A DNA stretch of 48,300 nt from Pseudomonadota bacterium (lineage in GTDB: Bacteria; Pseudomonadota; Gammaproteobacteria; Burkholderiales; Burkholderiaceae_C), in assembly GCA_018240325.1 (NCBI GenBank), contig JAFEFZ010000265.1:1-48300 (forward strand). The letters are read 5' to 3'. Of this stretch, positions 8,481 through 12,262 are shown one piece after another (the first letter of the stretch is position 1; every line of letters starts with the position of its first letter). The notes beneath the pieces were generated by a model. That model was not told the DNA's origin. It worked only from the letters and a program-made list of their open reading frames with translations, and searched no databases. Both the position numbers and the translations under genes were made by a program.

Positions 8481-8575
8481 CGTGTCGGCCTTTCGGTGGG
8501 TGGCGATGCGGGCATTGTCGCGCGCGGCCTGCCGCCTTCGCCGGTGCCCGCGGCGTTGACCTAAGCTCGGCCCCG

Positions 8576-10282
8576 ATGGGCAAGTTCGGCTGGATGACGG
8601 GGTGGCTGAGGACAGGCCTGCGTGTGCGGCGCGCGCGGCGATGCCCGGCCGCGCCGGCCGCGCGCCGGCCGCTGCTCGGCGGGCTGGGGCTGCTGGGCAT
8701 GGCGGCGGCCGGGTGGTCGGGCATCGGACTCTGGTCGCGCCCGGGCCGCGCCGCGCCGCTGCCGCCGGCGGCGCCGGGCGATGCGGCCGCGGCGCGCGCG
8801 CGGGTCGAGCAGTACCAGGCCGAGTCGTCGCTGAGCCGCACCCGCGCAGTGCGGCGGGCGCCGCGCGTCGATTGGGGCGATGCGTTGCCGCCGTTCAAGA
8901 CCGTGGCCGGCGACCGCACGCTCGATCTGCCGGCGCCGCGGCACGAATCGCGGCTGGCGCGGGTGCTGGATGCCGCGGCGCTCGGCGACCTGCTCTGGCA
9001 CACCGCCGGCGTGAGCCTGGAGCTCGGCGGCATCCACTACCGCGCCGCACCGTCGGCGGGGGCGCTGTTTGCGACCGAGCTGTACGTCGCAATCCGCCAG
9101 GTGGCCGGCGTCGAGCCCGGGCTGTGGCACTACGGCGCGCGGCATCACCGCCTGCAGCGGCTGGACGCGGCTTCACCCGCCGCAGCGGCGATCGGCCGGC
9201 CCGGCGCCCCTTGGCCCGACGGCGCGGCGGCGGCGCTGGTCGCGACGGCGGTCTTGCGCCGCACCGGCCGCAAGTACGGCGACCGCGCCTACCGCTGCAT
9301 GCTGGCCGACCTCGGCCATGCGCTGGAGAACCTGCGCGCTGCCGCTGCGGCGCTGGGCCTCGCGCTGCAGCTGCAGCCCCGATTCGACGGCGCTGCAGCG
9401 GCCGCCGCGCTGCGCATCGACGAGGCCGAGGAGGGCGTGCTGATGGTCGCGCTGCTGGGCGATGCGGCTGCGGTGTCGCCGGCGTGGCTGCCGCCCGTGC
9501 GCGGCTGGCAGCCGGCGGCGCCGTTGCCGGCGGGCACGACCGCGCGCCTCGGCATCACCGATGCAGTGCACCGCGCGACTTCGCTGCGCTGGGCCGGCGA
9601 GGCCGGCGCGGCAGCCGGCAGCGCAGCGCTGCCGCGGCGCAGCGCCGACGCGAGGGCGCGAGCGACCGCTGGCGCGAAGCCCGCCGCACTGCCGCGTGCG
9701 GGCAGCGGGCGGCTGCCGCCGCCGGCGCTGCCGCGGCAGGCCGACACGTTCGCGCTGATCGCGCAGCGCCGCTCGCGGCGCCGCTTCAGCGGCGCGCCGC
9801 TGGCGCCGGCCGACATCGGCGCGGTGCTGGCGGCGATGATGGCAGCACCGCCGCAGCTGTCGGCCGCGGTGCGCGCCGACCTGCTGAGCCTGCGGGTCGC
9901 GGGCCTGGCCGCCGGCGCCTGGCGCTACCGCAGCGACGGCCACGCGCTGCAGCCGCTGCCGGTGGCGGGCGAGGGGCTGCGCCTGCGCGCCCGCGCCGCC
10001 GCGCTGGACCAGGACGTGGTCGGCGATGCCGCGGCGGTGCTGCTGCTGTCGATCGATCGGCAGGCATTGGCCGCCGACCCCGACGGCTTCGCGCGCGCCT
10101 GGCGCCACGCCTTCCTCGAGGTCGGGCTGGCCGGCGAGCGCGCCTACCTCGAGGCGGGCGCGCGCGGCCTGGCGGTGTGCGCGGTCGGCGCGTTCCACGA
10201 CGACGAGGCGGCGCGCCTGGTCGCGGCCGATCCGGCGCGCGAATGGGTCGCGCATTTCGTCGCGCTGGGCCTGCCGGGCTGA
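8576..10282 (+). CDS. SagB/ThcOx-type tandem nitroreductase-family oxidoreductase
   Basis: A 568-residue protein with two flavin nitroreductase-like domains. The first (about 90-310) has the SagB pattern: RVDWGDALPPFKTV, GGIHYRAAPSAGALFATELY and RKYGDRAYRCMLADLGHALENL. The second (about 385-565) begins FALIAQRRSRRRFSGAPLAPADIGAVL. SagB-type enzymes oxidise azoline rings in thiazole/oxazole-modified peptides, but no cyclodehydratase or precursor gene is nearby, and stand-alone members are of unknown function. The N-terminus is basic, with ARRPLLGGLGLLGMAAAG (29-46), a possible Tat signal or membrane anchor, which is unusual for the family. A TAAGCT box ends 8 bases before the ATG and there is no Shine-Dalgarno. 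Confidence 0.82.
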   Translation: MGKFGWMTGWLRTGLRVRRARRCPAAPAARRPLLGGLGLLGMAAAGWSGIGLWSRPGRAAPLPPAAPGDAAAARARVEQYQAESSLSRTRAVRRAPRVDWGDALPPFKTVAGDRTLDLPAPRHESRLARVLDAAALGDLLWHTAGVSLELGGIHYRAAPSAGALFATELYVAIRQVAGVEPGLWHYGARHHRLQRLDAASPAAAAIGRPGAPWPDGAAAALVATAVLRRTGRKYGDRAYRCMLADLGHALENLRAAAAALGLALQLQPRFDGAAAAAALRIDEAEEGVLMVALLGDAAAVSPAWLPPVRGWQPAAPLPAGTTARLGITDAVHRATSLRWAGEAGAAAGSAALPRRSADARARATAGAKPAALPRAGSGRLPPPALPRQADTFALIAQRRSRRRFSGAPLAPADIGAVLAAMMAAPPQLSAAVRADLLSLRVAGLAAGAWRYRSDGHALQPLPVAGEGLRLRARAAALDQDVVGDAAAVLLLSIDRQALAADPDGFARAWRHAFLEVGLAGERAYLEAGARGLAVCAVGAFHDDEAARLVAADPAREWVAHFVALGLPG

Positions 10283-10336
10283 AGCCGTGCCGCCGACGCA
10301 TGCTGCGCGCGGCGGCATTTGCGGGGCACGACGGCG

Positions 10337-11072
10337 ATGGCGAAGACGCCGGTGTTCATCAGCCGCATCTCGGCCGGGACGGCGCTTGCCCAGGCGCTGA
10401 AGGAGCGGCTGCAGCGCGACTTCCTCGGGCTGCTCGACATCTTCGTGTCGTCCGACCAGACGACGATCCGCGCCGGGTCGAAGTGGCTCGACGGGCGGGG
10501 CTTCGACATCGTGCACCTGGTGCTGCCGGTGCATCCGCGCACCGGCGAGATGGTCTTCAGCGGCGTCGACCCCCGCAGCAACCTGCCGGCGCCCGGGCCG
10601 GCCGATGCGATGCCGCCGGCGGCCTTCGTGCGCCTGCTGGTCGAGGCCAAGGTCCGGCTGGTGGTCCTAGTGCAGTGTTCCACTCTGTGCAGCACTGAAG
10701 AAAACCGATGGATTTGTCGTCCTGGCTAGGCGCAAACCGCAGCGATGCCCAGTGGCATCGCGAGGATTGGCAACGACGCCAGGGCGGCAAAGGCGCGGTT
10801 TTATGTGCTGCATAGCGTGGAACACTGCACTAGCCACCTGCCGCGTGCCGCTGGTGGTGGCGCAGGAGGTGCAGCGGGTGGCGCATGTCGCGGCGAGCGA
10901 CGACGACATCAGCGGCGAGCAGGTGCGCGAATGGGCCGAGTGCTTCTACGGCCTGCTCGCGCAGGGGCGATCGGTGCACCAGGCCTTCGACCTGACGAAG
11001 ACGCAGGTCGAGGTGCCGATGCGCAGCTTCGAGGCGGCGCGCGATGTCGCCTTCGCCGCAGCGCGGCCCTGA
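10337..11072 (+). pseudogene. TIR-CHAT protein gene, disrupted by a MITE
   Basis: The 5' part encodes a TIR-domain start (PVFISRISAGTALAQALKER, then DIFVSSDQTTIRAGSKWLD), directly followed by a CHAT caspase-like segment (RGFDIVHLV, GEMVFSGVDPRSNLPAP, LLVEAKVRLVVL). After the MITE at 10670-10830 the CHAT domain resumes in frame as ATCRVPLVVAQEVQR and ends FYGLLAQGRSVHQAFDLT at 11072. Removing the MITE and one TA joins the frames to read VVLATC, with the presumed catalytic cysteine three codons after the junction; the restored protein would be 190 residues. The TIR half stops at about residue 52, so its catalytic Glu region is missing, and the CHAT His-Gly motif expected after FDIVHLV is absent. 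The gene was probably already a deletion fusion before the insertion. Confidence 0.85.
10670..10830. mobile_element. 161-bp MITE with near-perfect terminal inverted repeats
   Basis: The ends are imperfect inverted repeats of about 29 bp (27 matches); counted with the flanking bases the first 17 read CTAGTGCAGTGTTCCAC on both sides. The element is flanked by TA on both sides (10668-10669 and 10831-10832) within CTAG, as expected for an IS630/Tc1-like TA duplication; a 4-bp CTAG duplication as in IS5 relatives is the alternative. It has no coding capacity. Inside, GCGATGCC (10742-10749) pairs with GGCATCGC (10754-10761), and AAAACCG (10701-10707) with CGGTTTT (10796-10802). It is clearly less GC-rich than its surroundings. 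It interrupts the TIR-CHAT gene. No second copy is seen in the window. Confidence 0.88.
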
Positions 11073-11140
11073 GGGCGATTGAATCGAGCCGCTTGCCCGA
11101 ATGTCGGGTCGCAGGGCGCGTCGCCGGCGATGCGGCTGCC

Positions 11141-11146
11141 TAGAAT
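11141..11146 (+). promoter_or_regulatory. -10 box directly before aroC (possible leaderless start)
   Basis: TAGAAT ends nine bases before the aroC ATG and no Shine-Dalgarno lies between. If it is the -10, transcription starts at or within a few bases of the ATG. The preceding GCGGCTGCC is shared with the trkA promoter region. Confidence 0.45.
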
Positions 11147-11155
11147 GACGCGATC

Positions 11156-12262
11156 ATGTCCGGCTCCACCCTCGGCACGCTGTTTTGCGTCACCAACTTC
11201 GGCGAAAGCCACGGCCCGGCGATCGGCTGCGTGATCGACGGCTGCCCGCCGGGCCTGGCGCTGAGCGAAGCCGACATCCAGCACGACCTCGACCGCCGCC
11301 GCCCCGGCACCAGCCGCCACGTGACCCAGCGGCGCGAGGCCGACGCGGTGCAGATCCTGTCGGGCGTGTTCGAGGGGCTGACCACGGGCACGCCGATCGC
11401 GCTGCTGATCGCCAACACCGACCAGCGCAGCGGCGACTACGCCGACCTGCTCGACACCTTCCGCCCCGGCCACGCCGACTACGCGTACTGGCGCAAGTAC
11501 GGCCACCGCGACCCGCGCGGCGGCGGGCGCGCGTCGGCGCGGCTGACGGCGCCCACGGTGGCCGCCGGCGCGGTGGCCAAGAAGTGGTTGCGCGAGCAGT
11601 ACGGCACCACCTTCGCCGGCTGGATGGCGCAGCTCGGGCCGATCGCGATTCCCTTCGTCGACGAAGCGCAGATCGCGCACAACCCCTTCTTCGCGCCCAA
11701 CGCGGGCGTCGTACCCGAGCTGGAAGCGCACATGGACGCGCTGCGCCGCGCGGGCGACTCCTGCGGCGCGCGCGTGAACGTGGTCGCGCGCGGCATGCCG
11801 GCGGGGCTGGGCGAGCCGCTGTACGACCGCATCGACGCCGACATCGCCTACGTGATGATGGGCCTGAACGCGGTCAAGGGCGTCGAGATCGGCGCGGGCT
11901 TTCGCTGCGTCACCCAGAAGGGCAGCGAGCACGGCGACGAACTGACGCCGCAGGGCTTTCGCAGCAACCACGCCGGCGGCATGCTCGGCGGCGTGTCCAC
12001 CGGGCAGGACCTGGTCGTGTCGATCGCCGTCAAGCCCACCAGCTCGATCCGGCTGCCGCGCGCGTCGATCGACCGCGCCGGCAACCCGACCGTGGTGCAG
12101 ACGCTCGGCCGGCACGACCCCTGCGTGGGCATCCGCGCGGTGCCGATCGCCGAGGCGCTGCTGGCGATCGTGGTGATGGACCACGCGCTGCGCCAGCGCG
12201 CGCAGTGCGCCGACGTGCGCCACGCGGTGCCGCCGATCCCCGGTTCGGTCGGCGGCGCGTGA
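11156..12262 (+). CDS. aroC: chorismate synthase
   Basis: A 368-residue enzyme catalysing the last shikimate-pathway step, EPSP to chorismate, using reduced FMN without net redox change. The family signatures are visible: the start [20 protein letters not shown], the loop [15 protein letters not shown], the FMN/substrate region [20 protein letters not shown], and the C-terminal block with KPTSSI. Length matches bacterial AroC. It begins 83 bases after the dead TIR-CHAT gene and is followed by trkA. The start codon is set by family length; there is no ribosome site and a TAGAAT box lies close upstream, so a leaderless mRNA is possible. Confidence 0.96.

Follow-up and report, generated by a model that had tools for sequence, protein, structure and literature searches.

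The window, by which we mean the whole 48,300-nucleotide stretch of DNA that was analyzed, carries the pieces of a broken gene between a SagB-type dehydrogenase gene and aroC (Table 1). Two reading frames, 10337-10669 on the left and 10830-11072 on the right, are present with the peptides quoted in an earlier note on this DNA, and a MITE lies between them. The left frame runs into the element and reaches a stop codon at 10727-10729 after 19 codons. The insertion point falls between VVL and ATC, and the Cys is the third codon beyond it, in agreement with the earlier placement of the insertion three codons before a presumed Cys. At gathering thresholds, Rfam detected nothing in the window.

Table 1. 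Features of the relic gene, its lesions and its borders in window coordinates. G022 is a genome of the same genus that carries an uninterrupted relative.
Feature	Position	Strand	Basis or remark
SagB-type dehydrogenase gene, 568 aa	8576..10282	+	NCBIfam TIGR03605, 3.3e-42
Relic codons 1-52, start of TIR domain	10337..10492	+	87% identity to G022 protein residues 1-52
Deletion scar, three codons replacing G022 residues 53-221	10493..10501	+	Alignment and codon positions
CHAT-like half, first part (FDIVHL...VVL)	10502..10669	+	Corresponds to G022 residues 222-277; dN/dS 0.39 vs G022
Left TA of target-site duplication, within CTAG	10668..10669	.	
Hairpin MITE, 161 bp	10670..10830	.	Near-palindromic
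CHAT-like half, second part (LATC... to stop)	10830..11072	+	77% identity to G022 protein end; Cys conserved in all three copies
Right TA of target-site duplication	10831..10832	.	
aroC, fixed right border of a variable interval	11156..12262	+	Named from the earlier note and from synteny; 76 of 81 genus genomes have a match

Uninterrupted relatives and genomic setting

Each window piece was searched in 198 genomes, its own included, and matches were found in three: the own genome (G000) and two genomes of the same genus, G022 and G061. The G022 protein is uninterrupted and 356 aa long, counted from a start that aligns with the window ATG. The G061 copy (L040:6110-7177) has an in-frame stop in the linker, exactly between the TIR and CHAT-like parts, which remain open as frames of 178 and 163 aa. 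The earlier note had expected an intact homologue to be either a small TIR-CHAT protein or two adjacent genes, and these two genomes present one form each. All three copies come from draft assemblies, and two of the three are damaged, by different lesions.

We assessed continuity across the insertion with the uninterrupted relatives, not by joining the window flanks. In G022 a single open frame covers both window pieces, residues 221-282 matching the left frame and residues 276-354 the right frame, and the G061 copy is likewise continuous through the MITE site. Because consecutive G022 residues lie on the two sides of the element and G061 is uninterrupted at the same site, the MITE inserted into a gene, and the earlier proposal that it interrupts one continuous frame holds. 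The contig could instead join two separate loci wrongly at a repeat, given that the MITE is present in high copy number and that many contigs end inside it. However, the two flanks correspond to adjoining residues of a single protein in G022 and again in G061, and the surrounding TA and CTAG are consistent with a single target site. Judged by this homology, a misjoin is very unlikely and a true insertion is the reading that we adopt.

Alignment to the G022 protein also revealed a second lesion, a net in-frame loss of 166 codons from the window gene. The deletion removed most of the TIR domain, including the Glu of WVNFEAGA (Glu81), as well as the linker and the beginning of the C-terminal half. 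This catalytic-region Glu is therefore absent from the window copy, and it is present in G022 and G061. The suggestion that the TIR half had lost its catalytic second part by deletion was thus borne out.

When the G022 protein was compared with 398 relatives, 23 gave matches, and both halves were matched in only three (the own genome, G022 and G061). The other 20 match one part of the protein: 18 match the TIR region, sometimes with the linker, G005 matches residues 180-228 and G027 matches residues 134-329. In a scan of genome contigs with the alignment A3, three of 52 candidates were confirmed, namely G022, G061 and one distant planctomycete TIR protein. When the left piece served as the query, none of 205 candidate stretches proved to be a relative. 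None of 64 candidates from viral contigs was confirmed. Five records came from phages at a limit of E 1e-3 and another five from plasmids at a limit of E 1e-5, all matching the N-terminal part of the protein and none covering 80% of it, and the CHAT half of G061 had no match in plasmids. One of these TIR proteins, encoded on a Deinococcus plasmid, showed no CHAT similarity. A related TIR protein, annotated as hypothetical (L181:4001-4753), adjoins terminase genes in a Streptococcus phage record.

The gene occupies a variable place in the genome. In the genus aroC adjoins metZ, which lies upstream in 24 of the 29 stretches that were fetched (from 75 other genomes with an aroC match); of the five without metZ, two were under 400 bp, one had 1,500 bp read and two had no metZ in a wider stretch. 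The metZ-aroC interval ranges from 163 to 4,492 bp among the measured genus genomes, and ten such intervals, inspected by eye, contain chemoreceptor-like, CBS-like and unknown genes. In the window the interval (8481-11155) measures 2,675 bp and holds the SagB gene and the relic, neither of which had a match in the 29 fetched stretches, short ones included. The earlier note had pointed to the SagB-aroC interval of related genomes as the place to look for an uninterrupted or longer allele; the relic pieces matched none of the 29 stretches, and a longer allele does exist, in G022, in a different context.

The G022 gene is flanked by hydrolase-like and glgC-like genes and the G061 gene by OsmC-like and thioesterase-like genes (names assigned by eye), so that the three copies lie in three different contexts. 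No defense genes were seen beside the gene in these contexts (the window, G022 and G061; partly by eye). We considered SagB as a functional partner and rejected it, since SagB is not beside the gene in G022 or G061: in G022 its relative lies on a different contig, and at E 1e-20 no relative was detected in G061. From the three contexts and the lack of SagB as a fixed partner we infer a solitary gene that was acquired by transfer. As for the SagB-type gene itself, no other peptide-maturation gene was noticed beside it in the window, and SagB relatives of about 50% identity are located elsewhere in 15 of the 80 other genus genomes (E 1e-20).

The TIR and CHAT-like halves

The isolated window pieces had no matches in Pfam (E up to 10) or in PADLOC or NCBIfam (E up to 1), and the domain assignments therefore rest on the relatives. 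The family-profile search proposed in the earlier note thus failed with the window pieces, succeeded for the TIR half by way of the relatives and gave nothing in Pfam for the CHAT-like half. Both relatives match Pfam TIR_2 well above the curated cut-off of 28 bits (G022, E 3.4e-12 and 47.3 bits; G061, E 5.5e-14 and 53.1 bits). Glu81 of the G022 protein aligns with a Glu of AbTIR that we take to be catalytic in that protein. The ThsB models of PADLOC gave weak matches, 1.1e-4 at best.

The C-terminal half of the longer relatives, G022 and G061, has no Pfam match, PF12770 (CHAT) included. Homology to accepted CHAT proteins (L061, 8tl0 and L175) was nevertheless found by three separate routes. 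First, the G022 protein matches a protein of the same-genus genome G027 (L061; search E 9.9e-5) that is itself a clear Pfam CHAT protein (6.2e-55) and is TPR-CHAT-like; BLASTP aligned the two at 26% identity over 109 residues, from FDIVHL onwards. Second, a two-row profile searched against the PDB up to E 10 returned a sole match, chain A of 8tl0 ("CHAT domain-containing protein"; E 0.0081, profile positions 93-155), which an excerpt of the source names SAVED-CHAT (PMC11417357). Third, the two-row profile gave two weak matches outside the own genome among 398 genomes of the phylum, one of them L175, a Pfam CHAT protein (1.4e-6), and the other a response regulator that we took to be a false match. 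Alignment to L175 with hhalign gave a probability of 90, an E of 1.5e-6 and a score of 48.7, L175 having been chosen as the best match of the 398-genome search, a choice that favors its score. The controls scored at most 23.1 (200 shuffles), 10.9 (reversed sequence) and 13.1 to 16.8 (six unrelated window proteins).

The His-Cys dyad was judged on alignments to the relatives, to L175 and to the G027 protein. The Cys of ATC is kept in all three copies. VHFSGHG of L175 aligns with VHLALPVHP in G022 and VHLVAGVDP in G061, so the dyad His is not at the aligned place in either protein, nor does it appear when the G027 CHAT protein is aligned. Moving a gap could place the His of VHP in G022 close to the dyad position, but G061 has Asp there. 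The earlier note had attributed the missing His-Gly motif to decay. We reject that interpretation, because both longer relatives also lack the motif and its absence is therefore a family trait. Since the dyad His is not kept in the family, classical His-Cys protease activity of this half seems unlikely.

Other comparisons were less clear. With the single G061 sequence as query against the PDB, 8tl0 ranked fifth (E 0.73), behind unrelated proteins. A PADLOC SAVED_CHAT match (5.6e-4) was obtained for one form of the G061 sequence and vanished with other query ends. An AlphaFold2 model built from six short rows had a mean pLDDT of 39.3, too poor for fold comparison. These weak single-sequence scores, the poor model, the missing Pfam match and the absent dyad His would all fit some alpha/beta domain other than CHAT. 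We nonetheless regard such a domain as improbable, given that three CHAT proteins were reached separately with collinear motifs, and that shuffles and the six unrelated window proteins score far lower. The C-terminal half is thus likely to be a diverged CHAT domain, and the description of the locus as a TIR plus CHAT-like relic with a MITE insertion is upheld by the TIR_2 matches and the CHAT homology of the longer relatives. We are nearly certain that the locus is a pseudogene of a rare solitary gene with a TIR domain and a diverged CHAT (caspase-like) C-terminal half.

The hairpin MITE and the order of the lesions

The inserted element is short, has no coding capacity, ends in terminal inverted repeats, duplicates TA and occurs in many copies, as is characteristic of MITEs. 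Its arms, counted with the target bases, are 29 nt long and 93% complementary, and as a single DNA strand it forms one hairpin (-58.6 kcal/mol, z -8.9; none of 200 shuffles was as stable). The own genome has 75 listed matches, which, with each place counted once, comprise 17 places of nearly full length (at least 158 of 167 bp, at no less than 90%), 16 shorter places at 96% and above, of which many sit at contig ends, and seven diverged ones; the other listed matches are places matched in reverse, the element being palindromic. Fourteen own copies were examined, and all 11 that retain both exact ends are flanked by a TA duplication within CTAG. Outside the MITE, CTAG is found at five of the 368 TA sites of the window. 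Some match to the MITE is present in 30 of 81 genus genomes (own included), the best outside the own genome being in G037 (93% over the full length).

The own genome, a draft of 321 contigs, yielded no DDE_3 transposase, and a DDE_3 gene is present in three of eight other MITE-bearing genomes. In one of these, the sister genome G059 (L179:1196-2363), a 1,164-bp IS630-type element lies between TAs in CTAG and contains an open frame of 372 aa (DDE_3, 3.3e-22); of the outer 12 bp at its two ends, 10 and 11 agree with the MITE. No MITE-like ends were seen around the DDE_3 genes of the other two genomes. That an IS630-family element transposes into TA is established, according to an excerpt of the published account (PMC2170065). 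Given this precedent, the TA-in-CTAG target and the similar ends of the G059 element, the MITE was most likely moved by an IS630-type transposase. Together with its CTAG target, the hairpin MITE offers a usable marker of recent transposition in the genus. About 53 bp of the inner hairpin (window 10726-10778) recur in many genomes of the genus without the ends of the MITE, as at ten listed places in G054, and in part also on Aureimonas, Mitsuaria and Cupriavidus plasmids; this core is perhaps shared by several element families.

We compared the window MITE with a consensus of 12 own copies, which are 12 of the 17 near-full-length places. There is a single difference, and three of the remaining 11 copies carry the window base at that site. 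As it has no private change relative to the 11 other own copies, the window copy is, by this comparison, young.

For the coding pieces, Nei-Gojobori dN/dS between the window and G022 was 0.16 for residues 1-52, 0.39 for the 56 codons between scar and MITE and 0.22 for the 79 codons after the MITE; between G022 and G061 it was 0.40 for residues 1-52 and 0.53 for the scar-MITE stretch. These values indicate that most of the divergence accrued under constraint. The higher divergence of the scar-MITE stretch was considered as a sign of decay and rejected, because G022 and G061 are also most divergent from each other there. With G061 as the outgroup (52, 56 and 30 codons), 31 changes fell on the window branch (8, 10 and 13 at codon positions 1, 2 and 3) and 43 on the G022 branch (11, 9 and 23), and 14 were unresolved. 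The window branch shows a slight apparent excess of first and second position changes. By eye, the window departs at two TIR positions from residues common to G022, G061 and two additional relatives. Such changes are compatible with relaxed constraint before the MITE arrived, and it is plausible that the deletion came first and the insertion second.

An alternative is that the short form left by the deletion, in which the start of the TIR domain is fused to the CHAT-like half, worked as a small protein until the MITE alone killed it recently. The deletion is in frame, the pieces contain no stop or frameshift, their dN/dS against G022 is low throughout (0.16 to 0.39) and the MITE copy is young, all of which would suit a working short form. 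On the other hand, most of the TIR domain with its Glu is gone, as is the start of the CHAT half, and the two altered TIR positions are shared by four relatives. Moreover, an uninterrupted short form was found in none of 398 relatives, and a third of random deletions keep the frame anyway. We therefore give a working short form little credence.

Proposed history and comparison with known systems

These observations suggest how an unusual gene is being lost by an ordinary route, a large internal deletion and a young hairpin element. A rare one-gene TIR-CHAT gene would have been gained by transfer. The window copy lost 166 codons in frame, and with them the TIR Glu, the linker and the CHAT start. 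A hairpin MITE, probably moved by an IS630-type transposase, inserted in CTAG three codons before the conserved CHAT Cys, bringing a stop into the upstream frame. The gene would now be undergoing loss.

Other bacterial TIR proteins are known to cleave NAD+. The ancestral protein may have been a one-gene stress or defense effector in which the TIR domain was an enzyme cleaving NAD+, with the CHAT half, its Cys kept and its dyad His not, more probably serving as a sensor, scaffold or regulator than working as a classical protease. We offer this mechanism tentatively, at somewhat less than even confidence, and a role in defense or self-killing is suggested by the domains. The account as a whole, the pseudogene together with a mechanism understood as conjecture, we consider quite probable. 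A more specific version is doubtful, although attractive: a rare solitary immune protein, whose CHAT domain gave up the protease dyad to become a sensor or regulator, might have been transferred into one genus and quickly broken in two of its three copies, as expected of a costly self-killing gene.

With an uninterrupted relative known, the locus documents the loss of a rare TIR-CHAT gene by deletion and MITE insertion. It also suggests a fusion in which the TIR domain is joined to a CHAT-derived half that lacks the dyad His. The loss itself is ordinary, and the architecture of the longer relative in G022 is the part worth following; if that protein is active, a CHAT fold would be used in regulating a TIR enzyme.

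In excerpts of the open-licence literature we found no solitary small TIR-CHAT gene, and one bacterial case with both domains, the target of DGR 2 in Thiohalocapsa PB-PSB1, for which a conflict-system role is proposed (PMC10907252). Like that target, the protein described here combines CHAT and TIR domains in one bacterial polypeptide. The Thiohalocapsa protein, however, is a variable DGR target with partner genes, whereas ours is encoded by a solitary gene and its CHAT half is without the dyad His. The MITE resembles IS630/Tc1-mariner-type MITEs (ISY100; excerpt of PMC2170065) in its TA duplication and terminal inverted repeats, and a CTAG target is also named for an IS630-associated transposon in the title of a reference cited there. 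It differs in being almost entirely one hairpin and in that no DDE_3 transposase was found in its own genome. The TIR half belongs by Pfam to the TIR fold family of AbTIR (PDB 8g83) and Thoeris ThsB, and its Glu aligns with that of AbTIR; unlike those proteins it is followed by a CHAT-like C-terminal half, and ThsB models match it weakly. According to excerpts of the respective reports, CHAT occurs in Borvo and in type III-E CRISPR systems and TIR in other systems (PMC10952713), and the TPR-CHAT of Craspase is a His-Cys protease with H585 and C627 (PMC9729208). As in SAVED-CHAT (8tl0) and TPR-CHAT, the CHAT domain here would be one module of a larger protein, with sequence similarity to 8tl0 around the Cys. 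Those two are His-Cys proteases of CRISPR systems, whereas the present family does not retain that His and pairs its CHAT half with a TIR domain.
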